A stretch of DNA of 64,000 bases from Terriglobus roseus. Lineage in GTDB: Bacteria; Acidobacteriota; Terriglobia; Terriglobales; Acidobacteriaceae. The notes below the pieces were generated by a model. It was not told the DNA's origin. It saw only the letters and a program-made list of their open reading frames with translations, and searched no databases. The DNA lies in contig NZ_LT629690.1 in the NCBI RefSeq assembly GCF_900102185.1, forward strand, positions 4,402,001-4,466,000, read 5' to 3'. Every line of letters starts with the position of its first letter. Position 1 is the stretch's first letter. The translations under genes and the position numbers were made by a program. This document shows positions 6,921 to 34,812 of the stretch, piece after piece.

Positions 6921-8666
6921 CTACTTAGCCTGCTCGTCGATCCACTTCGACACACGTGCATCCAGCACGGTCAACGGCAGTGCGCCACCGTTCAGCACCT
7001 CATCATGGAACGCCTTGATGTCGAACTTCGCGCCCAGCTTCGCCTTTGCCTTCTCACGCAGCTTGCGAATCTCAAGCTGACCCATCTTGTAGCTCAGCGC
7101 CTGTCCCGGCCATGCAATGTAGCGGTCGGTTTCCGTCTGCGCCAGCGCGTCGTTCACATCATTGGCGTGCATGTAATCAATCACCTGCTGCCGCGTCCAT
7201 CCCTTGTCATGAATGCCAGTGTCCACAACCAGACGCACCGCACGAAACAGCTCGCTGTTCAGTCGGCCGTAGTCGCTAACAGGGTCCTGATAGAAACCGA
7301 CTTCCTTACCCAGCTCCTCCGCATATAGCGCCCAGCCTTCGCTAAACGCTGAGTAGCCGCCACGGAGGCGGAACTTCGGCAATCCCTTCAACTGCTGCGC
7401 CATACTGATCTGCATATGATGTCCCGGCACGCCCTCGTGATACGCAACCGCTTCATCCAGCACCAGCGTGCGTGTCGTCGGATTCGCAACCGCAACCACA
7501 ACGCGTCCTGGACGCTTCCCATCCGGCGTACCTGCGTTGTAGTGCGTAGCCTCCGCTGCGGCGAAGTCAGGGATGGGTTCCACAGTCACAGGCGACTTCG
7601 GCAACAGGCCGAACAGCTCCGGCAACTTCGGCTCCATCTGCGCAATGTACTTGCGGAAGTCTTCCACGATCTGTTCTTCGCTCTTCGGCTTCCACTTCGG
7701 ATCGGCATTGATCACAGCGCGCCACGTCGCCAGGTCCTTGTATCCCGCTTTCTTCGACAGCACCGTCATCTCTGCAGTGATGCGCTTCACCTCATCCAGG
7801 CCAAGCTGATGAACCGCTGCAGGCGTAATGTCCAGCGTGGTCATCTGCTTCACAGCTTCCGCATAACGGCGCTTGCCATCCGGCAGCGATTCAATCGAAA
7901 GCGCCTCGCGTCCCTTCGGCGCGTAATCATTGCGCAGAAACGCAGAGAACTTTGCGTACGCAGGGAACACATCGTTGTTTACAGCATCCGTGATCTCCTG
8001 CGTCAGCCGCGTCTTGTCAGCTTCGCTGAAGCTGGCCGGAAACTTCTTCGTAGGCAACAGAAATGGATTAGCCTTCACCACGCCGTCGCACTGTCCTGCG
8101 AGCTTCTCCGTGATGACCTTCGGCGGCATCAGCCCATCCTTCAGTCCAATGCGCATTACGTCCGTGGTCTCGCTCAGCACGCGCGGAATCTGCTTCAAAC
8201 GTGCAACGTAATCCTCGTAGTGCTTTACCGAATCGAACGGCATGCTCAGCGCCAGATCAGCCAACCCGGTGTGAATACCGTTCTGCTGATTGATGGGCAT
8301 CTCATAGTTCTTCAGTTCATAGCTCACATCACCGCGCTCCAGTCGATCCTGCAGCAGCGCATGCGAAGTAATGTCTGTGTCGCTCATGCCATCCGTAGAG
8401 ATGGCCTTCAGCCGCTTCAGAAAATCATCGTTCTCGGCGTGGTCACGCTGAATCGAGGCAAGCGAATAGTCGCCTAACTGATCGTTGTAGCGATAGTCGC
8501 CGAACGAAGTCGCGCCAGTAGGATTGCGCTTCAGCCCGTTCTGGAAGTACTCCTCAAACAGCGCATTCTGCGCGGCCGTGCGGTCCGCAACGGAAGTCTG
8601 AGCAGGAAGTGACACGCACACAGAAACAGCTGTGCAGGCAAGCAACAGGGCAGGCGTAATTCGCAT
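6921..8666 (-). CDS. Exported DUF885 protein (putative zinc metallopeptidase-like)
   Basis: I chose the ATG at 8666 (581 aa) because it begins a clear signal peptide, MRITPALLLACTAVSVCVSL, cleaved near LPAQ. The longer frame from 8840 would run back through the upstream terminator and into khpB. The remainder matches the DUF885 family, which contains an HExxH-like motif, here HEGVPGHHM about two thirds along, preceded by DEAVAY. Family members are thought to be periplasmic or secreted metallopeptidases, but biochemical proof is thin. It is a single gene between mnmE and khpB. Confidence 0.88.
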   Translation of the reverse strand: MRITPALLLACTAVSVCVSLPAQTSVADRTAAQNALFEEYFQNGLKRNPTGATSFGDYRYNDQLGDYSLASIQRDHAENDDFLKRLKAISTDGMSDTDITSHALLQDRLERGDVSYELKNYEMPINQQNGIHTGLADLALSMPFDSVKHYEDYVARLKQIPRVLSETTDVMRIGLKDGLMPPKVITEKLAGQCDGVVKANPFLLPTKKFPASFSEADKTRLTQEITDAVNNDVFPAYAKFSAFLRNDYAPKGREALSIESLPDGKRRYAEAVKQMTTLDITPAAVHQLGLDEVKRITAEMTVLSKKAGYKDLATWRAVINADPKWKPKSEEQIVEDFRKYIAQMEPKLPELFGLLPKSPVTVEPIPDFAAAEATHYNAGTPDGKRPGRVVVAVANPTTRTLVLDEAVAYHEGVPGHHMQISMAQQLKGLPKFRLRGGYSAFSEGWALYAEELGKEVGFYQDPVSDYGRLNSELFRAVRLVVDTGIHDKGWTRQQVIDYMHANDVNDALAQTETDRYIAWPGQALSYKMGQLEIRKLREKAKAKLGAKFDIKAFHDEVLNGGALPLTVLDARVSKWIDEQAK

Positions 8667-8697
8667 GCAGATGAGCCTAGCAGACCGCAAACCCCCG

Positions 8698-8730
8698 CAA
8701 AAGAAAAGAACGCAGCGAAAACGCTGCGTT
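8698..8730 (-). terminator. Rho-independent terminator after khpB
   Basis: A perfect 9-bp stem AACGCAGCG/CGCTGCGTT (8709-8730) with a 4-nt loop. Read on the minus strand it is followed by CTTTTCTTTT, a good U-run. It lies about 25 bp past the khpB stop and so ends the yidC-khpB transcript before the DUF885 gene. Confidence 0.85.
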
Positions 8731-8754
8731 CGTATCAATGAGATGTCCTTTGGC

Positions 8755-9306
8755 CTACCGGCGGCGGAAGCGTTCGCGAATCTTCGCGGCGCGGTCATCG
8801 CGTTCGCGTGCCTGCCAGCCTTCGGGATACAGAACCACAAACCGATTCGGTCCTTCGCCGCTGGACTCCGTACGCAGCCCCTCAGCCTTCTTCAGCGCTA
8901 GGTGGAGCATACGGCGTTCGCGGCTGCTCATGGGTTCAAAGCGATAGGGCTTACGGCTGTTCTTTACGGCCTCAATCCCCTCTTCCGCCAGGTCCAGAAT
9001 CTCGCGATTGCGTTCTGCCTTGTAGCCGCACGCATCGAAGCTGATGCGATCATGCTCTTCCGGCTCCAGCCGCAGAATCTTCGCGCACACATGCTCCAGC
9101 GAGCGCAGCAGTTCCCCGTCCCGGTGGATCAGCATCTGCTCATCCGGGCCACTCAACTCCACATAGATCAGGCGGTCCTCCAACCCATCCGGGTCAGCGG
9201 CGCCTGCGCCAGCCACAATGCGGAAGCGGAGTTTGAATCCGCCGGTTGTGGTCAGCATCTTCAGAAAATCGTGGGTCTGCTGGGCTGCGGTCTTCAGATC
9301 CTGCAT
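8755..9306 (-). CDS. khpB: Jag/KhpB-like RNA-binding protein (KH and R3H domains)
   Basis: A start at 9306 (183 aa, MQDLKTAAQQT) is preferred, with AGGAAG 11 nt upstream; a start at 9345 would add 13 basic residues. The middle (about residues 35-105) fits a KH-type domain. The C-terminal part (about 120-165) is an R3H domain with the R-x3-H signature (SSRERRMLHLAL) and the motif SSGEGPNRFVVLYP. The Jag_N domain of Firmicutes is missing, which makes the protein short. Placement just downstream of yidC is the classic arrangement. KhpB with KhpA binds many RNAs and affects cell division and envelope growth in Gram-positives; the role here is inferred. Confidence 0.88.
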   Translation of the reverse strand: MQDLKTAAQQTHDFLKMLTTTGGFKLRFRIVAGAGAADPDGLEDRLIYVELSGPDEQMLIHRDGELLRSLEHVCAKILRLEPEEHDRISFDACGYKAERNREILDLAEEGIEAVKNSRKPYRFEPMSSRERRMLHLALKKAEGLRTESSGEGPNRFVVLYPEGWQARERDDRAAKIRERFRRR

Positions 9307-9388
9307 GTGAATGCGTTCTTCCTTCTTTCGGGATCGTCGCCGCATAGCGGTTGCCGTCCCGTGAGATTAAAAATTTTAGGGTGTCTCT

Positions 9389-9440
9389 GACAGGTACGCA
9401 TGAGAGGCAATCTCAGTTGCACATTTCATGCGTACCTGTC
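9389..9440 (-). repeat. Perfect 15-bp inverted repeat between yidC and khpB
   Basis: GACAGGTACGCATGA (9389-9403) and TCATGCGTACCTGTC (9426-9440) are exact reverse complements separated by 22 nt that can pair further (GCAA/TTGC). In the RNA it forms a long hairpin directly after the yidC stop, followed by an AU-rich stretch. It could be an attenuator, an RNA-stability element or a protein-binding site. Confidence 0.75.
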
Positions 9441-9444
9441 CGGA

Positions 9445-11232
9445 TTACCGTTTGCCCTGGATGGTCCGTGGCTGACCCGCCTTACGGCGGGCACGCTTCG
9501 CAGCCAGCTCGCGCATCTCGCGGCCTTCCTTCGTCTGGTTCATGGCGAACTGCGCCAGGATCATGATGATGTTACCCACACACCAGTACAACGCCAGACC
9601 CGACGAGTAGTTCCACGTAATGAATCCGGAGAACAGCGGCATCGTGAACGCCATCATCTTCTGCTGCTGCGGATCCATACCCGGAGCCGGCATATAGAAC
9701 TGCGTCAGGAACTGCGTCAGCACCATCACGATGGGCAGGATGTGGTACGGATCGGCCACCGTCAGGTCATGCAGCCAGAACCAATGTGCCTCACGCAACT
9801 CCACCACCTTGGGCAGCATGCCCAGCATGGCAAACAGCAGCGGGAACGTCAGCAGCGTGGGTACGCAACCGCCAAACATGTTCACGCCGTTGTCCTTCTG
9901 CAGCGCCATGATCTCGGCGTTCATATCTGCACGCTTCGGATCAGTCACCTTGTACTTGGCATACTTCGCCTTGATGGCGTCCATCTGCGGCTGGATGCGC
10001 TGCATCTTCAAACCGCTCTTCATGGTCTGGTAGCGGAACGGCAGGATCACAATGTTCACAACGATCGTGAGCACCACAATCGCCCATCCCCAGTTGCTCG
10101 CAACGTGATCGTGAATCCAGTTCAGCAGCAGGAACAGCGCCTTCGCGAACGGTCCCCAGAAACCAAAGTCGACAACAGGCTCCAGCGTTTCGCTCGATCC
10201 CGAAACCTTGATGCCCTTCAGGACATCCACGGACTTCGGTCCAACGTACACACGCATGCTGCTGGTGTTTTCCGTGCTGCCTGCAGCAATGCCCACAACT
10301 GGAACGTCCACAGCCTTTTCAGAAACTGTGCCATCGCGGTGCAGCTTGTTCACGTCGATGGTGTTGTGCAGCATAACTGCCGTTGCCGAACCAGCGTTGT
10401 CCGGCAGGAAGACGGCAGCAAAATAGCCATCCGCCGTGCCCGCATACTGCAGGGGAGCGTTCAGCGTTTCGCCGCCAGAAACCTTCTTGAACTCGATGTG
10501 TTCGGCCTTGCCGTCCTTCATCGTCTCAATGCGCGAACCGTTGTAATCCAGCACCTGCTCCTGGTCGCCAAAGCCAGCAGGCCATGCCAGCAGAGCGCGC
10601 ACCGGCGATCCATTCACACTCACGCTGACCGTCGCCTTCAGCACGTACGTGCTGTCAAAGCTGAAGGTCTTGGTCACATCCACGTTGCCCTGTGTGTAGT
10701 GGTACGTCAGGGTCTGCGGAGCGGTCAGGTTGCCCGTCGCGGAAGGAACGAAGAGAGCCTGCTTCAGGCCAGCCGTGGTGCCCGCGTCATAGGTATGCAG
10801 CGACATCGGGAAGCCAAACTCGTGGCTCGCCTTCGCATTCACCAGGTCCAGCGGAGCGCCGTAGCGGCTCTTGAACTTCTTCAGAACCCACGAGCGAACT
10901 TCCGCACCGCGGTTGCTGAAGGTGATCTTGTATAGCTCGTTCTCAACGGTCGTGGTCTGTTCGGCCGCGGCAGAAACGGTGTTGCTGGCGCCACTGGCTG
11001 CAGGAGCCTGCACGGCGTTTGCATTGAAGTCAGCTTTGCTGCCGGTGGGCGCGCTTACCGGCGCGCTCTGGCTCTGTGTCTGCGCCGTAGGCGGCTGCAG
11101 TGGCTGCTTCTGTTTCGACTTATAGAACTGAAGCCCGGCAAACACGCCGAACATGACGACCAACATTACGAGGAAGGTGGTGTTGCTCTGCGAGCCGCCG
11201 CCTCCCTGATTAGGGTTCTTGATCTCTGCCAC
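9445..11232 (-). CDS. yidC: Membrane protein insertase YidC
   Basis: The preferred start is the GTG at 11232 (595 aa, begins VAEIKNPNQGGGG) with ACAGGAAAA just upstream; an ATG at 11286 would give 613 aa. One N-terminal membrane helix (TTFLVMLVVMFGVFAGLQF) and a Pro/Gln-rich linker lead into the large periplasmic beta domain. The C-terminal 60KD_IMP domain follows, with its helices near WIHDHVASNWGWAIVVLT, GGCVPTLLTFPLLFAM and WNYSSGLALYWCVGNI. YidC inserts inner-membrane proteins alone or with SecYEG. The protein ends in a short basic tail. No rpmH or rnpA is seen here, because the upstream neighbour is the divergent ribokinase gene. Confidence 0.96.
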   Translation of the reverse strand: MAEIKNPNQGGGGSQSNTTFLVMLVVMFGVFAGLQFYKSKQKQPLQPPTAQTQSQSAPVSAPTGSKADFNANAVQAPAASGASNTVSAAAEQTTTVENELYKITFSNRGAEVRSWVLKKFKSRYGAPLDLVNAKASHEFGFPMSLHTYDAGTTAGLKQALFVPSATGNLTAPQTLTYHYTQGNVDVTKTFSFDSTYVLKATVSVSVNGSPVRALLAWPAGFGDQEQVLDYNGSRIETMKDGKAEHIEFKKVSGGETLNAPLQYAGTADGYFAAVFLPDNAGSATAVMLHNTIDVNKLHRDGTVSEKAVDVPVVGIAAGSTENTSSMRVYVGPKSVDVLKGIKVSGSSETLEPVVDFGFWGPFAKALFLLLNWIHDHVASNWGWAIVVLTIVVNIVILPFRYQTMKSGLKMQRIQPQMDAIKAKYAKYKVTDPKRADMNAEIMALQKDNGVNMFGGCVPTLLTFPLLFAMLGMLPKVVELREAHWFWLHDLTVADPYHILPIVMVLTQFLTQFYMPAPGMDPQQQKMMAFTMPLFSGFITWNYSSGLALYWCVGNIIMILAQFAMNQTKEGREMRELAAKRARRKAGQPRTIQGKR

Positions 11233-12282: not shown

Positions 12283-13533
12283 CTATTCTTCAATCTTCAT
12301 GCCGCTGGGCGAACCCAGCGTGGCATAGCTCAACGCACCCAGCAGCGTCACCGCAGAGCAAACCGCAAACGCCAGCGTAAAGCTGTGCGTGCGATCCACG
12401 ATCATCCCGGTGACAACGGGCGCGACCGACGCAATCAGGAAGCTGGCAAAGTTCTGCAAAGCACCCAACGCAGAAACCAGATGCGACGGACTAACCGCCT
12501 GCACATAGCCCCATCCGCTGGTGCCGCCAAACTGAATAAACCCAAACGCAACGCTGATGCTGATCACCGCAGCGGGCAACGAATACGCATGCGACGCGAA
12601 GAACGACGCGGCTGCACTCAGCACCATGCCGACAATGATCTGCGTGCGATGAATGGACGTCAGCTTGTAACCGCGTGCAGCAAATGCATCCGCAAGAAAG
12701 CCGCTGGCCAACATGCCAAACGCACCAGCAAGAAACGGAATCGCCGCAAGCCATCCACTCTGCGATAACGACAGATGTCGCTCCGTTTGCAGATATCCCG
12801 GCAGCCACGCAATGTAGAGCCACGCGGTGTAATTCACACCGCCAAAGCCCAGCATCATGCCCCACACCGTGCGTTGCGTCAGCAATTCACGATAGACACT
12901 GCCTGTCGGAATCACGGTCAGCGTTTCATCGCTGTACATCGTCGCCGCACGTGGGCGATGCAGCAGCAGCCAGAGCAGTGCAACGACCAGTCCCACACCG
13001 CCCAGCACCTCAAACATGCCACGCCAACCGATGCGCAGCATCAACAGCGTGAGCAAAGGAGGCGCAGCAGCAAGCCCAAATGTCTGTGAAGAACTCATTA
13101 GCGCTGTAGCGCGTCCGCGCGTCCCGCGGCTGAACCACTCCCGCACACTACGAATGCCACTGGGATAAAACGGAGCTTCACCTGCTCCCAACAAGATGCG
13201 CAGAATGATGAACACGGGGAACGACGTAACGAACCCAGTCAGCAGTTGCGCCAGGCTCCAAACCGCCAGCCCAACGCCCAGCATCACACGCGTTCCCAGC
13301 CGATCCAGCCACGCCACCAACCCAAGCTGCGCAAACCCATACGACAACGAGAAGGCAGACAGCAGCCAACCCATCTGCGCATTGTTCAGGTGCAGCTCAC
13401 CCCGCACAACAGTATTCGCAACAGACAGTGAGGAGCGGTCAAAGAAGTTCACGATGCCTGCGGTAAACAGCAAAGCAAGCGTAATGCCCTGATGCGCGCG
13501 AAGGCTGCGCTCCTTGGTTGCAAATGCGTTCAA
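12283..13533 (-). CDS. MFS transporter, anion:cation symporter type (second transporter of the hexuronate operon)
   Basis: 416 residues with about 12 hydrophobic segments. The N-terminal pattern (FFDRSSLSVANTVVRGEL..., GWLLSAFSLSYGFAQL, DRLGTRVMLG) is that of the ACS family, whose members carry hexuronates, glucarate, gluconate and similar organic anions. It begins 36 bp after larB on the same strand and is the last gene of the run from 20011. A substrate or product of the LarA step (an aldonate) is a reasonable guess; the substrate cannot be read from the sequence. Confidence 0.85.
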   Translation of the reverse strand: MNAFATKERSLRAHQGITLALLFTAGIVNFFDRSSLSVANTVVRGELHLNNAQMGWLLSAFSLSYGFAQLGLVAWLDRLGTRVMLGVGLAVWSLAQLLTGFVTSFPVFIILRILLGAGEAPFYPSGIRSVREWFSRGTRGRATALMSSSQTFGLAAAPPLLTLLMLRIGWRGMFEVLGGVGLVVALLWLLLHRPRAATMYSDETLTVIPTGSVYRELLTQRTVWGMMLGFGGVNYTAWLYIAWLPGYLQTERHLSLSQSGWLAAIPFLAGAFGMLASGFLADAFAARGYKLTSIHRTQIIVGMVLSAAASFFASHAYSLPAAVISISVAFGFIQFGGTSGWGYVQAVSPSHLVSALGALQNFASFLIASVAPVVTGMIVDRTHSFTLAFAVCSAVTLLGALSYATLGSPSGMKIEE

Positions 13534-13569
13534 AACGGCAGCCTCGTGTGCGGAAGAGTCGAATCAACC

Positions 13570-14322
13570 CTAACGCACGGCGCGGTTTGCGTACAACGTA
13601 GCCACGTAACCAGCGCCGAAACCGTTGTCGATATTGGTCACCGTGATGTTGGGCGAACAACTATTCAACATGCCCAGCAGCGCCGCCACACCACCAAAGG
13701 CCGCACCATAACCAACGCTCGTAGGCACCGCAATCACTGGCACGGCAACAAGCCCGCCAACAACAGAAGGCAACGCGCCTTCCATACCCGCACAGCAGAT
13801 CACCGCATCCGCTTCACGAATCGCATTCAAATGCGCAAGCAGACGATGCAATCCCGCCACACCAACATCCGTGAATCGTGAAACCGTCGCACCAAAGAAG
13901 TCCGCAGTAATGGCGGCTTCTTCCGCAACATTCAGATCGCTTGTGCCTGCGCAGACAACGGCAACGCGTCCGCCACTCTTCTTCGCACCGTCGCCGCAGG
14001 TAATGCAGCGTGCGCGTGCGTGATACTTCGCATCGGGAACCAGCTTCTGTGTCGCTTCAAACGCAGCGGCATCCGCGCGAGTAGCCAACGCGGGCGTCCC
14101 GCTGGCATGAATACGCGCAAGAATAGCGGCGGTCTCTTCAGACGTCTTTCCCGCAGCAAACACCACTTCCGGCAGACCACTGCGAAGCGAACGATGATGA
14201 TCCACCTTCGCAAACTCAAGGTCTTCAAAAGGCAGCGAAGCCAGCTTGTCCGCAGTCTGTTCCGCGGTTAGCTTGCCTGCTTCCAGTTCACGCAGCAGAT
14301 GAAGAAGTGCATCACGCTGCAT
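13570..14322 (-). CDS. larB: Nickel-pincer cofactor biosynthesis protein LarB
   Basis: 250 residues. LarB carboxylates and hydrolyses nicotinic acid adenine dinucleotide, the first step toward the (SCS)Ni pincer cofactor. The AIR-carboxylase-like C-terminal half is clear: GTSDLNVAEEAAITADFFG, ICCAGMEGALPSVVGGL (about 175-191) and NSCSPNITVTNIDNGFGAG. Cys222 in NSCSPN sits where the L. plantarum enzyme has its adduct-forming Cys221. It overlaps larE by 11 bp, so the two are translated together. No larC (nickel insertase) was found in this window; it must be elsewhere if the cofactor is made. Confidence 0.95.
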   Translation of the reverse strand: MQRDALLHLLRELEAGKLTAEQTADKLASLPFEDLEFAKVDHHRSLRSGLPEVVFAAGKTSEETAAILARIHASGTPALATRADAAAFEATQKLVPDAKYHARARCITCGDGAKKSGGRVAVVCAGTSDLNVAEEAAITADFFGATVSRFTDVGVAGLHRLLAHLNAIREADAVICCAGMEGALPSVVGGLVAVPVIAVPTSVGYGAAFGGVAALLGMLNSCSPNITVTNIDNGFGAGYVATLYANRAVR

Positions 14323-15157
14323 GATTAGCCTTCAACAGCGAATCAATGGAAAGCAGGGCATTCATACTGCCGCTGCGATAGCCTTCCGTGTCCAGCGTGA
14401 CGTACGTGAATCCCGCAGCCTTCACCGCTGCAGTGATCTGCGAAAGCATATCCAGCGACAAAGCCTTCGCAAGCTCTCCACGTTCAATCTCAACACGTGC
14501 CAATTCGCCATGATGCCGCACACGAAGCTGCCGGAACCCAAGCGCAAGCAAAGCCTCTTCCGCCTCTTCCACCTGTCGCAAAGCTTCCGCCGTCACAGGG
14601 CGACCATACTCCAGCCGCGAAGACAAACACGCGGACGCAGGACGATCCCAAACTTCCAATCCAAAATGCTGCGCGAGCGCGCGAATCTCCTGCTTGCCCA
14701 GCGAAGCATCGGCAAGCGGAGCCACCGCATGATGATTCGCAGCCGCACGCTGCCCCGGACGAAAATCACCACTGTCATCGCGGTTACGACCATAAGCAAT
14801 CGTCGTAATGCCGGTCTCGCTCAGCATGCGTTCCATCGTGAGAAACAATTCGTCCTTGCAATGGAAGCAGCGCGCACCATCGTTACGCACATATTCCGCG
14901 CGATCCATCTCGCTGGTCTGCACCACCCGCAAGGGAATGTTGTTGTCTTCTGCAAACTTCATCGCAAAAGCAAGATGCGTACGCGGCAATGAAGGCGAAT
15001 CAGCAATCACGGCAACCATCTTGTCGCCAAGAACCTGGTACGCCTCCCATGCGAGATACGCGGAGTCCACACCGCCGCTGTATGCCACGGCCATACGTTC
15101 ATACCGGCGCAACTCCGTATGCAACTGTTCACGAAGCTGCGCCAGTGCAGTATCCAT
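14312..15157 (-). CDS. larE: ATP-dependent sacrificial sulfur transferase LarE
   Basis: 281 residues. LarE adenylates the LarB product and donates sulfur from its own cysteine, twice, to make the dithiolate of the nickel-pincer cofactor. The PP-loop SGGVDS lies at residues 27-32. The motif RPASACLSSRLEYG contains Cys177, which matches the sacrificial Cys176 of L. plantarum LarE. A second pair (CFHC, residues 97-100) is also present and could bind metal. The gene starts 2 bp after the larA stop. Confidence 0.95.
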   Translation of the reverse strand: MDTALAQLREQLHTELRRYERMAVAYSGGVDSAYLAWEAYQVLGDKMVAVIADSPSLPRTHLAFAMKFAEDNNIPLRVVQTSEMDRAEYVRNDGARCFHCKDELFLTMERMLSETGITTIAYGRNRDDSGDFRPGQRAAANHHAVAPLADASLGKQEIRALAQHFGLEVWDRPASACLSSRLEYGRPVTAEALRQVEEAEEALLALGFRQLRVRHHGELARVEIERGELAKALSLDMLSQITAAVKAAGFTYVTLDTEGYRSGSMNALLSIDSLLKANHAA

Positions 15158-15159
15158 CG

Positions 15160-16485
15160 TTACTTGGCCTCAGGCAGATCGCGCGAAAGATCCTTGCGCG
15201 ACGGGTTATCCAGCTTTTCCTTCGTGGCCCACAGACCGGCGGAAGGCGTGCTGATGTAGAACACTTCCTCGCCATCCGGCATCGTGTTCCAGCCTTCCTT
15301 CATCACAGCGGGGTCATAGCGCTTCTGCATCTCTTCGCAGTTCGCGTAACCATAACCCACCTGCTCAATCTCTTCCTTCGTGAGATGACCCGGTGCATAC
15401 GTGATGTGGAAACGACCTTCGCTGCTGCCGTGGATCAGGTGAGCCACACCATGCGGAATCTCCTGCATGTCAGCTTCCGTCTTGTACAGAGCCAGCGTGC
15501 GCGGCGTTCCCTTGTAGCCATACTTGCGGATCAGCGCATCCACTTCCGGCTGCTCACCAAAGCGCTCCACACCTGGCGCAATAATCAGCAACTCGCCACC
15601 ATCGGCAATCGCCATACGCGTACGATAAACAGCCTTGTTCGCCACCCACGTCGCGCGGAACTCATCCGCCTGCATCACGGCAACAACCTTATTGATCGGC
15701 TTATCGAACAGCGTAATGTTCTGTTCGCGGCTCTGCTTTGCAGCTTGCAGATACGTGTCCAGATCGTCGCCCACAAAGATGCCGCTGGTCACCAGCTTGT
15801 TGTCCGCATCGCGCTGCATCACAATCTGCAGGTAAACATCCGGCAGGTTCTGCAGATGTTCGACTTCGCTCCAGTTGTAGCAGGCGCGCAGCGGCGTAAT
15901 CAGGCAGCCAAGGTTGTTCTCAATGCCATACACCGCGGCCGCAATGTGCGATGCGCAGATGGTGTCCTTGCCGCCCAGACCAATGTAGTAGTTCTTGTTG
16001 TGGTTCGCAAAACCAAGCACTTCATGCGGAACAACATGGCCCACGTTGATGATCAGGTCCCACTGCTCATCAATGAGCTTGCTATTCAGATCAACCGGGA
16101 TATCCCAGTCCGCAGCGCCATCGGTGGTGTCCTTCACCATCGCAGCAGGAATGTTCGCAACTTTGGTAACGCCGTTGCGCCAGTCATGCGGGAAGATACG
16201 ATCGTTCGGAATCGAGCCGAACATCCACTTGTTCTCCGCCTCAGTGTGCGGCACATGCTGGCCCAGCGTGGGGATAACTTCCACATGCGCGTCAGGCAGC
16301 GCGTTGTAAAGATACTCGGTGATCCAGCCAGCTCCAGAGTGTGCGCGAGTAAGATCCGGCGGCAACAAAAGAACGCGCTTCAGATCCTTGTTGATGCGTG
16401 TGCGCGCTTCACTCAAAAGACGGTCGCAAGCTTCCTTAATCTGTGCGTCCGATACGTGCGGTGCTTGTACGGTAAACCAGGCCAC
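15160..16485 (-). CDS. larA: LarA-family nickel-pincer racemase/epimerase, probably acting on an aldonate
   Basis: I chose the GTG at 16485 (441 aa, MAWFTVQAPH) because GAGGGAAG lies 5 nt upstream; the open frame runs on to a TTG at 16521 without a ribosome site. Motifs of the DUF2088/LarA family are intact: PPDLTR (Asp44, Arg47), LGQHVPHTEAE (His77), then His154, Lys164 and His180. The last three have exactly the 10 and 16 residue spacing of His174, Lys184 (covalent cofactor attachment) and His200 (nickel ligand) in L. plantarum lactate racemase. The active centre therefore looks functional. The text around the lysine (ANHNKNYYIG) differs from the lactate-racemase type I know, and the gene lies in a hexuronate operon. 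D-gluconate 2-epimerases are known in this superfamily, so an aldonate substrate is favoured over lactate. Confidence 0.88.
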   Translation of the reverse strand: MAWFTVQAPHVSDAQIKEACDRLLSEARTRINKDLKRVLLLPPDLTRAHSGAGWITEYLYNALPDAHVEVIPTLGQHVPHTEAENKWMFGSIPNDRIFPHDWRNGVTKVANIPAAMVKDTTDGAADWDIPVDLNSKLIDEQWDLIINVGHVVPHEVLGFANHNKNYYIGLGGKDTICASHIAAAVYGIENNLGCLITPLRACYNWSEVEHLQNLPDVYLQIVMQRDADNKLVTSGIFVGDDLDTYLQAAKQSREQNITLFDKPINKVVAVMQADEFRATWVANKAVYRTRMAIADGGELLIIAPGVERFGEQPEVDALIRKYGYKGTPRTLALYKTEADMQEIPHGVAHLIHGSSEGRFHITYAPGHLTKEEIEQVGYGYANCEEMQKRYDPAVMKEGWNTMPDGEEVFYISTPSAGLWATKEKLDNPSRKDLSRDLPEAK

Positions 16486-16572
16486 GATGACTTCCCTCAG
16501 CGGCGAACGCCGCGCTTCCAAAACTTATTGATCTTTCTCGGCAATACGAAACGCCGGAGAAAGAGGTTCCAT

Positions 16573-17820
16573 CTATCCCAGGAACAAGTGCTTGATATGA
16601 CGGTCAAAAAGATTCGTCGTTACATTACGCGCCACAACTTCTTCATTCGCTTCCAGCGCATCAATGTAGCGATTGCCCATCTTCGCCGCCACCTTAAAGC
16701 CAACATGCAATAGCTGGCGCAGGTCCGGGTTGTACTGCGGATCGCCTTCAACGTGACGCAACGCACGAACATACTGCTCGCTCGTCCATCCGTTCACCGT
16801 CTCCGGCGTGGGCAGGTTTTCCGTCTTGATGTCGATCACAGTGGAATACGGAGCGCAAAGCTCTTCCGCATGCGCAAATGCTTCTGCGTACACTTCCTTC
16901 GCAAGCGCCAACGCATCGCCACCGGCTTCCGCAAGGCCAATCAACTCTTCCAGCCACGTCGTGCCAGCCGTCTTCACATGTACGCCCGCGCCCGTGTCTT
17001 TCAACGACTTGCGAATCGGCTCGTAAATGCTGAACTTATCCGATCCCGAATGCACACTCAGCTTTAGATTCGCAGGCAGACCATACGTCTTCACTGCGTA
17101 AGCAATGGTCGCAATGTCCTCGCGGAATTCCTTCTCAAACTGTGCGACATTCCCTACGTAATCCACACCCTTGTTGAAACGGCCTGTGAACTTCGGAGCA
17201 ATTGTCTGGATCGGCAACTTCTCATCCGCAATTGCCGCAAGAATAATCAACAGCTCCGGCGGCGTCTGTGGATTGTCGGTCTCATCCATTGAGATCTCCG
17301 CAACGAAATCCTCAGATCCCTTCTTCGCCACCACTGCCTTGTAGATCGCAGCAGCTTCCTGCACAGCAGCCAGGAAGGTCTTCGCAGTCTTCTCAACGAA
17401 CGCCTTGTCCAGCGAGAATGGCTTCTCAATCCCCGGAATGGTGATCTCACCCATCAGTTCCGGATGACGCTCCACAAACTGCGCAATCTCGTTCTCATCA
17501 CTCTTCTGACCAATGTTGTCTGCGACATCCAGCGTGAAGAAATCGCACGGTGCAACAAAGCGCTCATAGGTCTTCAGATTGATGTGATCCGCATCAGCGA
17601 AGTATGGCTTCGTCCAACCCAGCTCCTTCACGGCAACATCAATCGCAGCGCGCGTCTGGCTTGGCTCAGAACCAATAATCAAATGTTCGCGGTTCGACTT
17701 GTTCCACACCGGCGTAATATCCGCACCGGCCTCAGCGGCCATGATGCATGCCTGCAACTGCGCCTTTGCCTGATGTGCGAAACGATCGCCCATACCGAGC
17801 GAAAATTTAGGTAGCTGCAT
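16573..17820 (-). CDS. uxaE: Tagaturonate/fructuronate epimerase (UxaE family)
   Basis: 415 residues. The N-terminus FSLGMGDRFAHQAKAQLQA and the motif PVWNKSNREHLIIGSEP are characteristic of the UxaE family, best known from Thermotoga, which epimerises D-tagaturonate to D-fructuronate at C4 in a metal-dependent way. Candidate metal ligands occur in the FADADHIN, LSVHSGSDKFS and LHVGFKVAAKMG regions. Its presence lets galacturonate merge into the glucuronate branch without UxaB. It lies between the SDR gene (95 bp upstream) and larA (87 bp downstream) on the same strand. Confidence 0.88.
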   Translation of the reverse strand: MQLPKFSLGMGDRFAHQAKAQLQACIMAAEAGADITPVWNKSNREHLIIGSEPSQTRAAIDVAVKELGWTKPYFADADHINLKTYERFVAPCDFFTLDVADNIGQKSDENEIAQFVERHPELMGEITIPGIEKPFSLDKAFVEKTAKTFLAAVQEAAAIYKAVVAKKGSEDFVAEISMDETDNPQTPPELLIILAAIADEKLPIQTIAPKFTGRFNKGVDYVGNVAQFEKEFREDIATIAYAVKTYGLPANLKLSVHSGSDKFSIYEPIRKSLKDTGAGVHVKTAGTTWLEELIGLAEAGGDALALAKEVYAEAFAHAEELCAPYSTVIDIKTENLPTPETVNGWTSEQYVRALRHVEGDPQYNPDLRQLLHVGFKVAAKMGNRYIDALEANEEVVARNVTTNLFDRHIKHLFLG

Positions 17821-17915
17821 GTTTCCTCTCCCGGCTATTCAGCTCTTAGCCTTTAGCTCTTGTTGTCAGCGCTGATGCATCCGGCGCAATGATTGAACAC
17901 GTTCTTACGTAACGA

Positions 17916-18689
17916 TTACTGATTCACACCACTTGCAAGAAATCCACCGTCCACCACAATCGTGTGTCCGTTGGTAAAGCTGGCCGAGTCGCTTGCCAAA
18001 TAAATCGCTGCACCCACAAGCTCTTCCGTCTTACCAAAGCGATCCATCGGGCAGCGCATACGCAGTTCCTGTCCCCGCGGCGAACCATCCAGCAGAGCCG
18101 CATTCAACTCAGTGCGGAACACACCCGGCGCAATACCGTTCACCGTCACGCCATGCTTTGACCATTCAACAGCGAGTGAGCGTGTCAGCGAAAGCACAGC
18201 AGCCTTACTGGCTGCATAGCCCGCCACTTCGCTCAACGCAACAAAGCTGTTCAGAGAAGCAATGTTGATGATGCGACCATACTTCTGCTCAATCATCTGC
18301 TTGCCAAACACCTGGCAGCTACGCAGCATGCCGGTCAGGTTAGTGTCCATGATCTGGTTCCACTCCGCTTCCGGATACGTCAGCGTAGGCTGGCGCTTGA
18401 TAATGCCTGCCGAGTTGATCAGAATATCGACCTTGCCAAACTCCTTCAGCACGGCAGCCAGCAGGGCTTCAATCTGTGCGCGGTCTGTCTGGTCACAAGT
18501 CTGGCGAATGGTCTTGCGGCCCACTGCTTCAATCTCTGCAGCAACGTCATTCACCTGCTCAGCGCGGCGACCGGTGCTCACCACATCGGCACCAGCCTGT
18601 GCCAGGCCAATTGCCATCGCACGGCCAATACCACTGGTTCCACCAATTACGACCGCAACACGGCCTTCAAGACTCAAAGGATGTTTCAT
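17916..18689 (-). CDS. SDR oxidoreductase, probable fructuronate reductase (or KduD-like)
   Basis: 257 residues, classical SDR. The cofactor motif GGTSGIGRAMAIG lies near residues 16-28, NSAGI near 90, and the catalytic Ser and YAASK near 145-165. The ATG overlaps the exuT stop (ATGA), so translation is coupled. By context it would reduce the 2-keto sugar acid made by UxaC/UxaE; the SDR-type fructuronate reductases of Bacillus and the 2-keto-3-deoxygluconate dehydrogenase KduD are both near relatives. I favour D-fructuronate to D-mannonate because UxaE sits in the same operon. Confidence 0.8.
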   Translation of the reverse strand: MKHPLSLEGRVAVVIGGTSGIGRAMAIGLAQAGADVVSTGRRAEQVNDVAAEIEAVGRKTIRQTCDQTDRAQIEALLAAVLKEFGKVDILINSAGIIKRQPTLTYPEAEWNQIMDTNLTGMLRSCQVFGKQMIEQKYGRIINIASLNSFVALSEVAGYAASKAAVLSLTRSLAVEWSKHGVTVNGIAPGVFRTELNAALLDGSPRGQELRMRCPMDRFGKTEELVGAAIYLASDSASFTNGHTIVVDGGFLASGVNQ

Positions 18690-20011
18690 GCTCCCAACCT
18701 CTCCGGGTTAACAGGTACGTCCGCTCGGCGCAGGCCGGGCGCAAAAATCTGCAGGCACACAAACGCCACCATGTAGATGGAACCCGCAAGGATAAACAGT
18801 GTGTTGTAGCTGCCGGTCAATTGCAGAATGCGTCCTGCCTCAACCGATAGCAGCGTGCCAAGAATGGAACCCACCATGCCAGCCAGACCCACCACAGAAC
18901 CAACAACGCTGTTCGGGAAAACGTCAGAAGCGCACGTGTACACATTCGCGCTCCAACCCTGATGTCCAGCGGTTGCCAGGCTCAGCAGCGCTACTGCCGT
19001 CCACATGTCGTTCACGTGGCTGATGTACAGCATGGGCAACGAGAACAGTGCGCAGAAGAACATCGCACCATAGCGTGCCTTCGCACCATGCAGTCCAAGC
19101 TTCTCAAACAGCGCAGGTAGCCAGCCGCCCAGAATGCCACCCACAGTTGAAGTCAGATAGACAACGATGATGGGCAATCCAAGATTCTTCAGATCAACAT
19201 GAAAGCGCGAATCCAGATAGCCCGGAATCCAGAACAGATAGAACCACCAGATGGGATCGGTCAGGCCCTTGCCCAGCACAATGCCCCACGTCTGGCGATA
19301 CGTCAGCAGCTTCAGCCACGGAATATTCGCGGCATCCATCTGCTCCGCGTTTTCTTCATAGATGTGGCGAAGCTCTTCGCCCGTAAGCGTCGGGTGTTCC
19401 TTCGGCTTGCGATAGTAGAACCACCACCAGATGATCCACGGCAAACCAATCAATCCCGTGAAAAGAAACGCGGCATGCCAGCCGTAATGAATGGTGATCC
19501 ACGGAATCGTGAGCGGGCAGATGATCGCGCCTGCAGTCGCACCGGCATTAAAGATGCCCGTAGCCAGCGAACGTTCACTGCGCGGAAACCAGTCGGCAAC
19601 CGTCTTGATTGCAGCAGGGAAGTTACCAGACTCGCCAAGACCAAGTGCAATACGCGCAACACCAAAACCCGTCACCGTGCTGACAAAAGCATGCGCCAGC
19701 GCGGCCATACTCCATACAGCCATCACCAGGCTGTAGCCCAGGCGCGTGCCCACCTTATCGATAAGGCGTCCAACGCCCAGCAGGCCAACGGCATAGGCTA
19801 CTTGGAACATCGCAATGATGTTGCCGTAACCTTCTTCGCTCAGGCCAATGCTGTGTTGCAGCGTGGGCTTCAACAGGCTAAGGACCTGGCGGTCCATATA
19901 GTTGATCGTGGTTGCCACAAACAGCATGGCGCAGATTGTCCAGCGGACATTCCCCACGTGCGTCCGGCGTTGGCCGGGCGACAGGTCTGCAGTCGGTTCC
20001 AAGGGGCTCAC
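18686..20011 (-). CDS. exuT: Hexuronate MFS transporter, ExuT-like
   Basis: 441 residues, 12 predicted membrane segments. The ACS-family signature NYMDRQVLSLLKPTLQ and the segment GLGESGNFPAAIKTVADWFPRSERSLATG are close to E. coli ExuT, a proton-coupled uptake system for galacturonate and glucuronate. It is the first gene of the seven-gene minus-strand run ending with the MFS gene at 12283. The 210-bp gap to the divergent regulator at 20230 holds two palindromes and a LacI-type site. Confidence 0.88.
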   Translation of the reverse strand: MSPLEPTADLSPGQRRTHVGNVRWTICAMLFVATTINYMDRQVLSLLKPTLQHSIGLSEEGYGNIIAMFQVAYAVGLLGVGRLIDKVGTRLGYSLVMAVWSMAALAHAFVSTVTGFGVARIALGLGESGNFPAAIKTVADWFPRSERSLATGIFNAGATAGAIICPLTIPWITIHYGWHAAFLFTGLIGLPWIIWWWFYYRKPKEHPTLTGEELRHIYEENAEQMDAANIPWLKLLTYRQTWGIVLGKGLTDPIWWFYLFWIPGYLDSRFHVDLKNLGLPIIVVYLTSTVGGILGGWLPALFEKLGLHGAKARYGAMFFCALFSLPMLYISHVNDMWTAVALLSLATAGHQGWSANVYTCASDVFPNSVVGSVVGLAGMVGSILGTLLSVEAGRILQLTGSYNTLFILAGSIYMVAFVCLQIFAPGLRRADVPVNPERLGA

Positions 20012-20118: not shown

Positions 20119-20133
20119 AGTGGTCAGACCACT
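20119..20133. promoter_or_regulatory. FadR/UxuR-type GntR operator between exuT and the FCD regulator
   Basis: AGTGGTCAGACCACT is a perfect palindrome containing TGGTCAGACCA, the core of FCD-subfamily GntR sites such as that of E. coli FadR. It is placed between the divergent exuT operon and the regulator at 20230, as expected for repression of both. Confidence 0.75.
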
Positions 20134-20179: not shown

Positions 20180-20229
20180 CACATTCAGCTTCCCAATGCC
20201 TCGTTCTGTGTGCAGAATGGGTGCTGACC

Positions 20230-20988
20230 ATGACGAACGTCAATACCCGTCTACCAGCCGCCGACCGCCAGATCGCCATGCGCGTGGTGGAACGCATTCG
20301 CGAGGCGCTAGAGGATGGCACCTGGAAGCCCGGTGACAAACTGCCGCCCGAACGCGAGTTCGCGGCGACACTCGGCATCAGCCGTTCCAGCTTGCGCTCT
20401 GGCCTGGGTTATCTCGCAGCCATGGGATTGCTGCAGGTGCGTCATGGTGTAGGCGCGTTTATTTCCGAGGCTCCAACGCAGTTCGGTGCGGCATCACTGC
20501 CGTTTCTCGATGCCCTTCACGGCTACGACATCCATCAGCTATTTGAAGCACGACGCATCCTCGAAGGCCACATCGCATCGCTTGCGGCAGAGCGCACCAC
20601 GGAGCGCCACCTGCAGCAGATGGCCGAAGAACTGGAAGAGATGGAAGCTTCCGTTGACCAGCCACAGGAGTACCTCATTCACGATGTACGTTTCCATCGC
20701 ATCGTGGCCCAGGCCGCAGGCAATTCCATTCTGGCAGCCATCATGGAAAGCCTGACCGGAGCGCTCTACGAGGTGCGGCATTCCGCTACGGAACAGATCG
20801 CCGATCTGCACGTAACAACAAAATTCCATCGCGACATCTACCGAGCCATCCGCAGCGGCAACTCGCGCACCAGCCGCGCAGCCATGGAAAAACATCTCAC
20901 CAACGCAGAAGCCGACGACGACCTGCCTCCTAAGAGAAAGCGCCAGCCAGCAAAGTCCAAGGCCCGCACTGCAGCCTCCCGCAGCTAA
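20230..20988 (+). CDS. GntR-family regulator with FCD domain (UxuR/ExuR-like)
   Basis: 252 residues from the ATG at 20230; a GTG at 20221 is in frame. The N-terminal winged helix (about 18-85) has the family motif WKPGDKLPPEREFAATLGIS followed by a second recognition motif (SLRSGLGYLAAMGLLQVRHGVG). The C-terminal FCD domain (about 95-220) has the Asp/His positions of a metal-assisted ligand pocket (HDVRFHRIVAQAAGN, TTKFHRDIYRAI). The last 25 residues are Lys/Ala-rich and look disordered. FCD regulators bind sugar acids; placed between exuT and uxaC, this is the likely hexuronate sensor. Confidence 0.9.
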   Translation: MTNVNTRLPAADRQIAMRVVERIREALEDGTWKPGDKLPPEREFAATLGISRSSLRSGLGYLAAMGLLQVRHGVGAFISEAPTQFGAASLPFLDALHGYDIHQLFEARRILEGHIASLAAERTTERHLQQMAEELEEMEASVDQPQEYLIHDVRFHRIVAQAAGNSILAAIMESLTGALYEVRHSATEQIADLHVTTKFHRDIYRAIRSGNSRTSRAAMEKHLTNAEADDDLPPKRKRQPAKSKARTAASRS

Positions 20989-21053: not shown

Positions 21054-22448
21054 CTACAAACGGTAAGCCTTCTTCACCAGGTTCACCGTCAGGTCCTGCG
21101 CCAGCTCAAACGCCTCATCCTCTTCAATGCGATGTTCCGCTACCAGCCGTGCCAGGAAAGCGCAATCGATGCGACGAGCCACGTCGTGCCGTGCCGGAAT
21201 GCTCAGGAACGCACGCGTGTCATCGTTGAAGCCAACCGTGTTGTAGAAGCCTGCGGTCTCCGTAGCTGTCTCGCGGAAACGCATCATGCCTTCCGGGCTA
21301 TCGTGGAACCACCACGGCGGTCCCAAACGCAGCGCAGGATAGTGTCCGGCCAGCGGTGCAAGCTCACGGCTGAAAGCGGTCTCATCCAGCGTGAACAGGA
21401 TCACCGTCAGGTTCGCCTCATTGCCAAACAGGTCCAGCATCGGCTGCAGCGCATGCACGTAGTCGGTGGCAGTCGGGATGTCCGCACCCATGTCGCGACC
21501 AAATTTCTCAAAGAGAATCTGGTTGTGATTGCGCATGCTGCCTGGGTGAATCTGCATGACGAGCCCGTCTTCGACAGACATGCGCGCCATCTCCGTCAGC
21601 ATCTGCGCACGGAAGACTTCTTCATCATCCTCATCCGCTTCGCCGCTCAAAATCACGTCGAAAAGCTGCGCACACTCTTCCGGATCAAGGTCCGCAGTAC
21701 GTGCCGTCGGATGCCCATGATCGGTAGCCGTCGCTCCCAACGATTTAAAGAACGCACGACGATTGCGTAGTGCATTCAAATAGCCTTCCCACGTCTCCGT
21801 ATTCTCGCCAGTGATCTCGCCCAGCTTGGCAATGTTCTCGCGGAAGCCAGCAAACTCAGGATCCACAACCGAATCTGGTCGGAACGTAGGAACAATGCGT
21901 CTCTTCCAATCACCCTTGCGCAGCGTCTGAATATCCGTCAGGGGATCAATGGCAGAGTCAGTGGTCGCCAGCACATCAATCTTGAAGCTCTCAAACAAAG
22001 CGCGCGGACGAAACTCGGGCGTCTGCAGCTTCTCAGCAATGGTGTCGTAATACAGATCCGCAGTCTTTGAAGACAGGCGCTCCGTCAGACCAAACTGCTC
22101 CTGGAACGCATAGTCCAACCACAGGCGTGAAGGTGTTCCGCGAAACAGATAGTAGTGGTCCGCGAAAATCTTCCAAACCTTGCGCGGATTCTCAATGACC
22201 GCCTTGCCAATCTCCAGGTCTTCCAGCTTCACGCCCTGGCTGTACAGCATGCGGTGAACATAATGATCCGGCTGGATGAACAGCTTCGAAGGATCAGGGA
22301 AGGCGTCGTTCGTGGCGAACCAGCCGGCCTGTGTGTGTCCATGCGGGCTTACGATCGGCAGATCGCGCACCGTTGCAAACAAACGTTGCGCAATGGAACG
22401 AGTGGTCGGGTCTGCCGGAAAAAGGCGGTCGTCGTGCAGCAGGGGCAT
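21054..22448 (-). CDS. uxaC: Glucuronate/galacturonate isomerase UxaC
   Basis: 464 residues, normal for the family. The N-terminal SPHGHT motif (His36, His38) belongs to the amidohydrolase-like metal site; LWLDYAFQEQFGL, ATTDSAIDPL and the C-terminal GFNDDTRAFLSIPARHDVARR are typical UxaC segments. It interconverts D-galacturonate/D-tagaturonate and D-glucuronate/D-fructuronate, the first step after uptake by ExuT. It is transcribed alone, divergent from the glycerate kinase gene, and has a LacI-type site (22518-22532) in its promoter region. Confidence 0.95.
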   Translation of the reverse strand: MPLLHDDRLFPADPTTRSIAQRLFATVRDLPIVSPHGHTQAGWFATNDAFPDPSKLFIQPDHYVHRMLYSQGVKLEDLEIGKAVIENPRKVWKIFADHYYLFRGTPSRLWLDYAFQEQFGLTERLSSKTADLYYDTIAEKLQTPEFRPRALFESFKIDVLATTDSAIDPLTDIQTLRKGDWKRRIVPTFRPDSVVDPEFAGFRENIAKLGEITGENTETWEGYLNALRNRRAFFKSLGATATDHGHPTARTADLDPEECAQLFDVILSGEADEDDEEVFRAQMLTEMARMSVEDGLVMQIHPGSMRNHNQILFEKFGRDMGADIPTATDYVHALQPMLDLFGNEANLTVILFTLDETAFSRELAPLAGHYPALRLGPPWWFHDSPEGMMRFRETATETAGFYNTVGFNDDTRAFLSIPARHDVARRIDCAFLARLVAEHRIEEDEAFELAQDLTVNLVKKAYRL

Positions 22449-34152: not shown

Positions 34153-34812
34153 TTACAGGATGATGGCCGTCAATCGCCGCGGGCCGTGTACGCCGCGGAT
34201 GCGTGTCATCTCAATGTCGCTCGTGGCGGATGGCCCTGCGATGGTGGTGATGGGCGAGGTGCGATGCGTGATGCGTTGCAGCGCTTCTGCAATCGTCTCC
34301 ACCACCTGGTCGCGCCACAGCACGCAGATGTGATGGTCAGGTAGCAGCGTTGCAGCGCGACGGCCCTGTTCCTCGCCATGTTCCAGGATGATGGTGCCGC
34401 TCATTGCAATGGCCACTGTGCAAGGCGTAAGTACAACGCGAGGTTCTTCCAGCGGCTGCAAAGGCAGATCGAAATCGCGGCGGACTTCCACATCGTTCTG
34501 CGGCAGCCACTCTTCAGGAACCCCCGCAGGTACAAGAAGAAGTGTTTCGTTCGCCTCGCGCATGGCGTGGGCAACAGCGTTTGCGATACCTGCTTCGTCG
34601 GTGAAGACAAGTTCCGAATCGTAATCGCGCAGCCGGTCGTAGAAAAGCTCCAACGTCTCTTCACGATTCAGCTTCGAGGTGCGCTGATATGTGCGTGGAA
34701 TGCGTGCGTACGCTTCTTCCGGAGAATCGTCGATCAGCGTCTCCACATCAGGATCAGCGGCGAGCTGGCGGCGAATCGTATCCAGTACGGTAAAACGTGC
34801 GTCATCACTCAT
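34153..34812 (-). CDS. lutC: Lactate utilization protein LutC (LUD domain)
   Basis: 219 residues from the ATG at 34812, which overlaps the lutB stop by 8 bp (GGAG upstream). The LUD-domain motif CTVAIAMSGTIILEHGEEQG and the C-terminal PSATSDIEMTRIRGVHGPR are characteristic. LutABC together oxidise L-lactate to pyruvate through iron-sulfur centres; LutC is the partner without clusters. Last gene of lutABC. Confidence 0.94.
   Translation of the reverse strand: MSDDARFTVLDTIRRQLAADPDVETLIDDSPEEAYARIPRTYQRTSKLNREETLELFYDRLRDYDSELVFTDEAGIANAVAHAMREANETLLLVPAGVPEEWLPQNDVEVRRDFDLPLQPLEEPRVVLTPCTVAIAMSGTIILEHGEEQGRRAATLLPDHHICVLWRDQVVETIAEALQRITHRTSPITTIAGPSATSDIEMTRIRGVHGPRRLTAIIL

Follow-up and report, generated by a model that had tools for sequence, protein, structure and literature searches.

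The minus strand of a 64,000-nt stretch of the Terriglobus roseus genome (RefSeq assembly GCF_900102185.1, contig NZ_LT629690.1, genome positions 4402001-4466000; hereafter the window) carries at 12283-20011 a hexuronate operon that includes a homologue of the nickel-pincer lactate racemase LarA. Judging by its sequence and by gene context in relatives, this LarA is most likely an epimerase that converts mannonate to gluconate by inversion at C2, a reading to which we give a probability of about 0.73. The core finding is a further member of an already proposed pathway. As recounted in PMC6978723, Rodionova 2012 had galacturonate degraded in Thermotoga via 2-epimerization of mannonate to gluconate by GntE and placed gntE homologues in Lactobacillus, Acidobacterium and Terriglobus, which overturns the claim of a preliminary description of this DNA that no described hexuronate pathway uses a nickel-pincer epimerase. 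The new part, and the most valuable lead, is that the LarA clade concerned may mature without LarC, a proposal drawn from genome content that we hold at slightly less than even odds.

The window LarA exceeds the cut-offs of PF09861 and of NF052594, the NCBIfam model 'nickel-dependent putative hexonate epimerase' for LarA group 18 (equivalog cut-off 500). Desguin 2020 hypothesized that group 18 is a hexonate epimerase and reported epimerase activity for groups 19 and 20, with the Corynebacterium glutamicum and Thermotoga maritima enzymes (PMC7583248). Equivalents of the catalytic D72, H108, H174 and K298 of LarA are found at D56, H89, H166 and K296, and those of R75, K184 and H200, which bind the nickel-pincer nucleotide (NPN), at R59, K176 and H192. 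The 10- and 16-residue spacing noticed earlier for His154, Lys164 and His180 is correct, but the numbering is off by 12, these being H166, K176 and H192 in the listed open reading frame, for which an alternative GTG start about 12 codons in is possible. Signature positions F175, F176, W358 and T359 of LarA correspond to E167, V168, A360 and H361. Given that the rule published by Urdiain-Arraiza 2024 together with a eukaryotic GntE assigns E,V,A,H to GntE and F,F,W,E/Q to lactate racemase (PMC11770544), the window LarA carries the GntE signature. The best PDB match of its AlphaFold model (predicted local distance difference test score of 89.5) was 4NAR, the T. maritima GntE2 (Z 40, root-mean-square deviation 2.4, 392 aligned residues), followed by other LarA-family structures with Z of 30 or less.

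Within group 18 we distinguish two clades under labels coined here: 18a, which is linked to gntK and gnd, and 18b, which contains the window LarA. Its mean identity is 42% to 17 18a LarAs and 76% to 33 other 18b LarAs. In a tree that left out the two pieces of a split gene (L093) and two distant LarAs (L030 and L031), 18b formed one clade (support 100/99) whose stem measures 1.46 changes per site, and 18a had support of 89/70. All the catalytic, NPN-binding and signature residues named above are identical in 34/34 18b and 17/17 18a LarAs. Members of 18b come from Acidobacteriota, from Actinomycetota and from contigs that bear the labels Planctomycetota, Verrucomicrobiota, Kiritimatiellota, Armatimonadota and Pseudomonadota. 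A comparison of 34 18b with 18 18a sequences gave 46 positions where a single residue is shared by at least 94% of 18b and is absent from every 18a sequence. Four of them are histidines (H92, H162, H174 and H357), each present in 34/34 18b sequences and at most 4 residues from a catalytic or signature residue; 13 of the 46 positions lie that close, all four histidines among them (p 0.004, post hoc). The converse comparison gave 29 18a-specific positions, none of them a histidine. A Kiritimatiellales contig (L089:2615-6943) encodes gnd and, after it, a tandem pair of larA genes, one of 18b and one of 18a, which both score above the group-18 cut-off.

Mannonate to gluconate is the best reading because group-18 larA genes sit with gluconokinase or 6-phosphogluconate dehydrogenase (gnd) genes in relatives. 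Of 149 Acidobacteriota genomes, 19 had an NF052594 match over cut-off, and 12 of these 19 had gntK over cut-off (TIGR01313), against 2/19 of the other genomes searched. The gntK gene lay no more than about 2 kb from larA in 10 of the 12, eight of them in one genus and two in two further genera, while in another family gnd directly adjoined larA in 4/4 group-18 genomes, all from one genus. At the 18a loci, larA occurs with gluconokinase in 10/17 and with 6-phosphogluconate dehydrogenase in 4/17, and uxaC was in the same fetched stretch in 11/17. UxaE was detected in 14/19 of the group-18 Acidobacteriota genomes. Two 18b larA genes stand in a short run with an SDR (short-chain dehydrogenase/reductase) gene scoring above the D-mannonate oxidoreductase cut-off of 281 (317.4 bits in L080, where it follows larE, and 323.8 bits in L084, where it adjoins larA). 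An FGGY-family kinase gene comes right after larA-larE-SDR in L080 and L081, with a partial kinase in L079, and gnd is found about 8 kb farther on in L081. The Occultella genomes (3/3) have gnd next to larB or to larE-larB and uxaC no more than about 7 kb off, and two further 18b genomes (G151 and G154) have gntK in the vicinity of larB/larE.

The operon of the window runs in the order ExuT-like MFS (major facilitator superfamily) transporter, SDR, UxaE, LarA, LarE, LarB and second MFS transporter, and profile matches confirmed the order and identities given in the preliminary description. Overlaps, which had been taken there as the sign of a single operon, exist between exuT and the SDR gene (4 bp) and between larE and larB (11 bp) and nowhere else; the other junctions are gaps of 2 bp (larA/larE), 36 bp (larB/MFS), 51 bp (uxaE/larA) and 95 bp (SDR/uxaE), and the run is still compact. 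The T. roseus DSM 18391 genome has the same gene order and a LarA 92% identical to that of the window, and the second MFS gene, at 237 bits under the TIGR00893 cut-off of 395, holds the equal position in T. roseus L061. Among the best 25 of 234 models, the broad NF005559 'glucose 1-dehydrogenase' subfamily is the only one whose cut-off the window SDR reaches (220.6 bits, cut-off 215); for KduD it falls short (245.9 bits, cut-off 338.85). The candidate operator AGTGGTCAGACCACT has counterparts with two mismatches close to the gntR/exuT junctions of T. roseus L061 and of Terriglobus contig L062, and was not found in L064 or L069, two 18b loci with hexuronate genes.

In the proposed pathway, ExuT would import galacturonate or glucuronate under GntR control, with the palindrome as the candidate site of the GntR/FCD regulator. 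UxaC would isomerize the imported hexuronate, UxaE would turn tagaturonate into fructuronate, and the SDR would presumably reduce fructuronate to D-mannonate. The LarA-family enzyme would then invert C2 of D-mannonate, its predicted substrate, to give D-gluconate by a hidden hydride transfer on the pincer nucleotide made by LarB and LarE, and GntK and Gnd, encoded elsewhere in the genome, would send gluconate into the pentose phosphate pathway. The genome is a single contig of 4.85 Mb, 99.98% complete, with one LarA. A gluconokinase gene, whose search the preliminary description had proposed, was found at 3716265 (158 bits, cut-off 113.75). A run at about 0.62 Mb holds transketolase-like, gnd, zwf, pgl-like and glucokinase-like genes, of which gnd and zwf were checked by profile (gnd_rel 380 bits, cut-off 297.2; zwf 639 bits, cut-off 400.6). 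These data back a mannonate-to-gluconate branch of hexuronate (pectin) catabolism for LarA group 18 and extend its range to soil Acidobacteriota and to contigs bearing the labels Planctomycetota, Verrucomicrobiota and Actinomycetota.

The window itself had no match to UxuA-type (PF03786) or altronate/galactarate (PF04295) dehydratases or to GntK-type gluconokinase (TIGR01313), in a search that did not cover ManD, gluconate dehydratase, FGGY gluconokinase, 2-keto-3-deoxygluconate kinase or 2-keto-3-deoxy-6-phosphogluconate aldolase; all three models have matches elsewhere in the genome. The earlier statement that a dehydratase is lacking therefore holds for the window and fails for the genome, where a search turned up uxuA at 3808625-3809791 (TIGR00695 424.6 bits, cut-off 199.55), about 0.6 Mb from the hexuronate operon and beside another SDR gene. 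What stands of the original proposal is the LarA step, best supported by the E-V-A-H signature, the gntK/gnd linkage and GntE2 as nearest structure, and not its novelty or a genome-wide absence of dehydratases. Altronate dehydratase was rejected as a hidden exit, the PF04295 match at 4489258 being a galactarate dehydratase in a glucarate/galactarate operon. That operon (G000:C1:4483600-4490500, L124), which comprises genes for an MFS transporter, gudD, kdgD, an aldehyde-dehydrogenase-like gene and garD, lies about 18-24 kb beyond the window end. PF04295 matches occur in 21/36 group-18 genomes, and only the copy of the window genome was named by a model, so that an altronate route elsewhere is possible.

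Several observations weigh against the mannonate-to-gluconate assignment. Given the real uxuA in the genome, mannonate has a second exit, and gntK lies about 0.7 Mb from the hexuronate operon. The window SDR falls below the cut-off for D-mannonate oxidoreductase PRK08277 (223 bits versus 281), and no LarC was found in the window genome. Both identity and stem length set 18b well apart from 18a, the clade linked to gntK and gnd; a GntK-type kinase was found in 0/33 18b larA loci (4.5-19 kb each), and the FGGY kinases mentioned above match xylulokinase best and gluconokinase next, both below cut-off. Since UxaE is absent from 5/19 group-18 genomes, LarA is not tied to galacturonate alone. No assay of any group-18 enzyme was found in the literature searched. 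Of the systems used for comparison, T. maritima does not grow on galacturonate, glucuronate or gluconate alone according to PMC3750489 and PMC6978723, and L. suebicus is described in the latter as epimerizing the phosphorylated acid (6-phosphomannonate) and not mannonate.

The strongest alternative, which we nevertheless consider unlikely, is that 18b enzymes epimerize C2 of another hexonate (e.g. altronate/allonate, galactonate/talonate or gulonate/idonate) and merely share the operon. The long 18b stem and the 46 positions conserved in 18b alone would fit such a role, the Kiritimatiellales tandem of 18b and 18a suggests two functions, and a different native substrate has been suspected for group 19 (PMC7583248). 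However, the substrate-signature residues equal those of GntEs, a curated D-mannonate oxidoreductase shares a run with 18b larA in L080 and L084, and several 18b genomes have gnd, uxaC or gntK close to larB/larE.

Reverse flux, in which the second MFS transporter takes up gluconate, LarA epimerizes it to mannonate and the UxuA encoded at 3.81 Mb dehydrates the product, appears improbable, even though the genome has uxuA, the operon lacks gntK and such epimerases are reversible. UxuA was not over cut-off in 16/19 18b genomes (by PF03786 for G000 and G013, by TIGR00695 for the other 17), three of which (G152, G157 and G159) gave weak TIGR00695 matches under cut-off, and T. roseus DSM 18391, which has the same operon, had no uxuA match. 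Any PF03786 match was seen in 7/19 of the group-18 Acidobacteriota genomes. No operator copy with at most two mismatches was present in the uxuA or gntK stretches fetched, which speaks against uxuA and equally leaves gntK without an operon link; the gntK and gnd linkage in relatives again points from mannonate to gluconate.

LarC is the sole enzyme described in the literature searched as placing nickel into the pincer, and clade 18b makes this textbook step testable. A LarC had been assumed for the window genome, but the search found no PF01969 match at E≤0.001, and TIGR00299 gave two matches at E≤1, of 18.6 and 11.9 bits (cut-off 90). The 18.6-bit match was discarded, as its locus holds longer unrelated frames on both strands. 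Genome-wide searches for cofactor genes covered LarB and LarC, LarE being seen at loci only. Among the 19 18b genomes tested (17 belonging to loci among the 33, together with G000 and G013; several are metagenome-assembled genomes of unknown completeness), LarB was over cut-off in all 19 and LarC in 3, against 17/17 for LarC in 18a (Fisher p 1.3e-7, relatedness ignored). LarC was searched with PF01969 for 18a, with TIGR00299 for the 17 locus-derived 18b genomes, and with both for G000 and G013. While larE and/or larB adjoins or is near larA in 13/33 18b loci, larC is present in 0/33; in 18a, larC stands between larE and larB at loci such as L046, L048 and L052. The 18b protein is the sole PF09861 LarA in 16/19 genomes, two of which have LarC. 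The third LarC-bearing genome (G164) has three further LarAs, and in two genomes (G158 and G165) a second LarA is present but LarC does not reach the cut-off.

Given that no LarC was found in the window genome or in most of the 18b genomes tested, although the latter are LarB-positive and their LarAs conserved, pincer completion without LarC is tentatively proposed, with the chances just short of one in two. The epimerase might be self-metallating, a second insertase might act, or the pincer might be nickel-free. Nickel is probably still used, since H192, which ligates nickel, and K176, the tethering residue, are both retained, and self-metallation would possibly involve the four histidines peculiar to the clade, which lie next to the active-site motifs. 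Loss of larC could have followed the replacement of an older 18a by 18b in a lineage. G151 may be an example: uxaC-gntK-SDR faces touching larB-larE genes (LarB 8305-9063, LarE 9063-9911), the 18b larA is elsewhere, and neither an 18a larA at this locus nor a larC in the genome was found. We found no description of LarC-free LarA clades in the open-licence literature searched. That LarA is instead inactive or a relic, its cofactor not completable without the LarC that two models failed to detect, seems still less probable than reverse flux: catalytic and cofactor residues are kept in 34/34 18b LarAs from several phyla, and larE and larB are retained with invariant motifs. In LarB, 28 polar or glycine positions are invariant across 33 sequences, and in LarE, C97, C100 and C177 are invariant in 27, forming a CXXC-C motif read as a [4Fe-4S] site (PMC9283937). 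An ordinary lactate racemase feeding LutAB-like oxidation genes 14-17 kb away, as the preliminary description had offered for LutABC, can practically be set aside, for although a LutB-like gene (34805-36307, minus strand; TIGR00273 462.6 bits, cut-off 444.8) and a putative LutA-like neighbour (36286-37071, minus strand) are present, they lie outside the operon, and LarA scores 28.3 bits against the lactate racemase model NF033504 (cut-off 460) and has E,V,A,H in place of F,F,W,E/Q.

Two candidate substitutes for LarC were rejected. Neither LarB nor LarE has an 18b-specific position that would mark it as altered to replace LarC, the diversity of the 18b set making such positions harder to find. 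Clustering of the proteins of at least 100 aa from the 33 18b loci and 13 regions gave no candidate insertase. Groups present in at least four loci were LarA, LarB, LarE, SDR, UxaC, UxaE/GntR, ExuT/MFS, Gnd, TonB receptors and two unlabelled groups of four loci each, one consisting of FGGY kinases (3/4 members scanned) and the other having the look of a LacI-type regulator from its sequence. Elsewhere in the family of the window genome, two genomes (G065 with L025 and G107 with L026) carry a LarA that resembles GntE, belongs to another branch and keeps every catalytic residue. Its gene cluster also holds SDR and GntR genes, as well as ExuT in one of the genomes and gnd in one of them; in both, LarB was not over cut-off and LarC was not found. 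A third member of the family (G022) has LarB and LarC and no match to NF052594, the sole LarA model run there. In another part of the window, the gene at 42287-43135 is a relative of 2,4-didehydro-3-deoxy-L-rhamnonate hydrolase (424.4 bits, below the cut-off of 500) and hints at a non-phosphorylative rhamnose route.

Table. Features of the hexuronate region (window coordinates).
Feature	Coordinates	Strand	Evidence or position
Second MFS transporter (galactonate-transporter like)	12283..13533	-	Last in run; PF07690 3.2e-48
LarB, first NPN-cofactor enzyme	13570..14322	-	NF033503 279.7 bits, cut-off 175
LarE, sulfur insertase	14312..15157	-	PP-loop and CXXC-C motif; TIGR00268 302 bits, cut-off 150
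LarA-superfamily group 18 putative hexonate 2-epimerase, clade 18b	15160..16521	-	NF052594 582.8 bits, cut-off 500
UxaE, tagaturonate-fructuronate epimerase	16573..17820	-	PF16257 1.2e-52, 179.6 bits, cut-off 27.1
SDR oxidoreductase, putative fructuronate reductase (mannonate-forming, UxaD-like)	17916..18689	-	PF13561/PF00106
ExuT-like MFS hexuronate transporter	18686..20011	-	PF07690 4.1e-55; TIGR00893 251 bits, below cut-off 395
Perfect palindrome AGTGGTCAGACCACT, candidate GntR/FCD operator	20119..20133	.	Between exuT and gntR
GntR/FCD-family regulator	20221..20988	+	PF00392 and PF07729; just outside run
UxaC uronate isomerase	21054..22448	-	PRK02925 573.5 bits, cut-off 387; PF02614

Among known systems, the T. 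maritima operon gnd-uxaRED-gntEK resembles that of the window in UxaE, the SDR and GntR-family control (PMC3750489), and its GntE2 (LarAH20, 4NAR) shares fold, catalytic and cofactor residues with the window LarA. The two enzymes are, however, only 24% identical over 328 residues, 4NAR has S for V at one signature position, and GntE2 belongs to group 20 and the window LarA to group 18. T. maritima also has gntK and gnd in the operon and was positive in a LarC control match, whereas in the window genome gntK is elsewhere and no LarC was found. In the galacturonate pathway of Lactobacillus suebicus, a UxaC-UxaE-UxuB upper part is likewise joined to 6-phosphogluconate, but mannonate is phosphorylated first and then epimerized (PMC6978723). 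D-mannonate/D-gluconate 2-epimerization has been published for GntE1 of Corynebacterium glutamicum (LarAH19) and for LarAH15 of Phytophthora (PMC7583248, PMC11770544), which belong to other phylogenetic groups than the window LarA and are likened to it by published function alone. By its score over the equivalog cut-off of NF052594 (582.8 versus 500), the window LarA falls within group 18 itself. From the other clade of that group, at 42% mean identity, its own differs in mostly lacking LarC among the genomes tested and in having added four conserved histidines.

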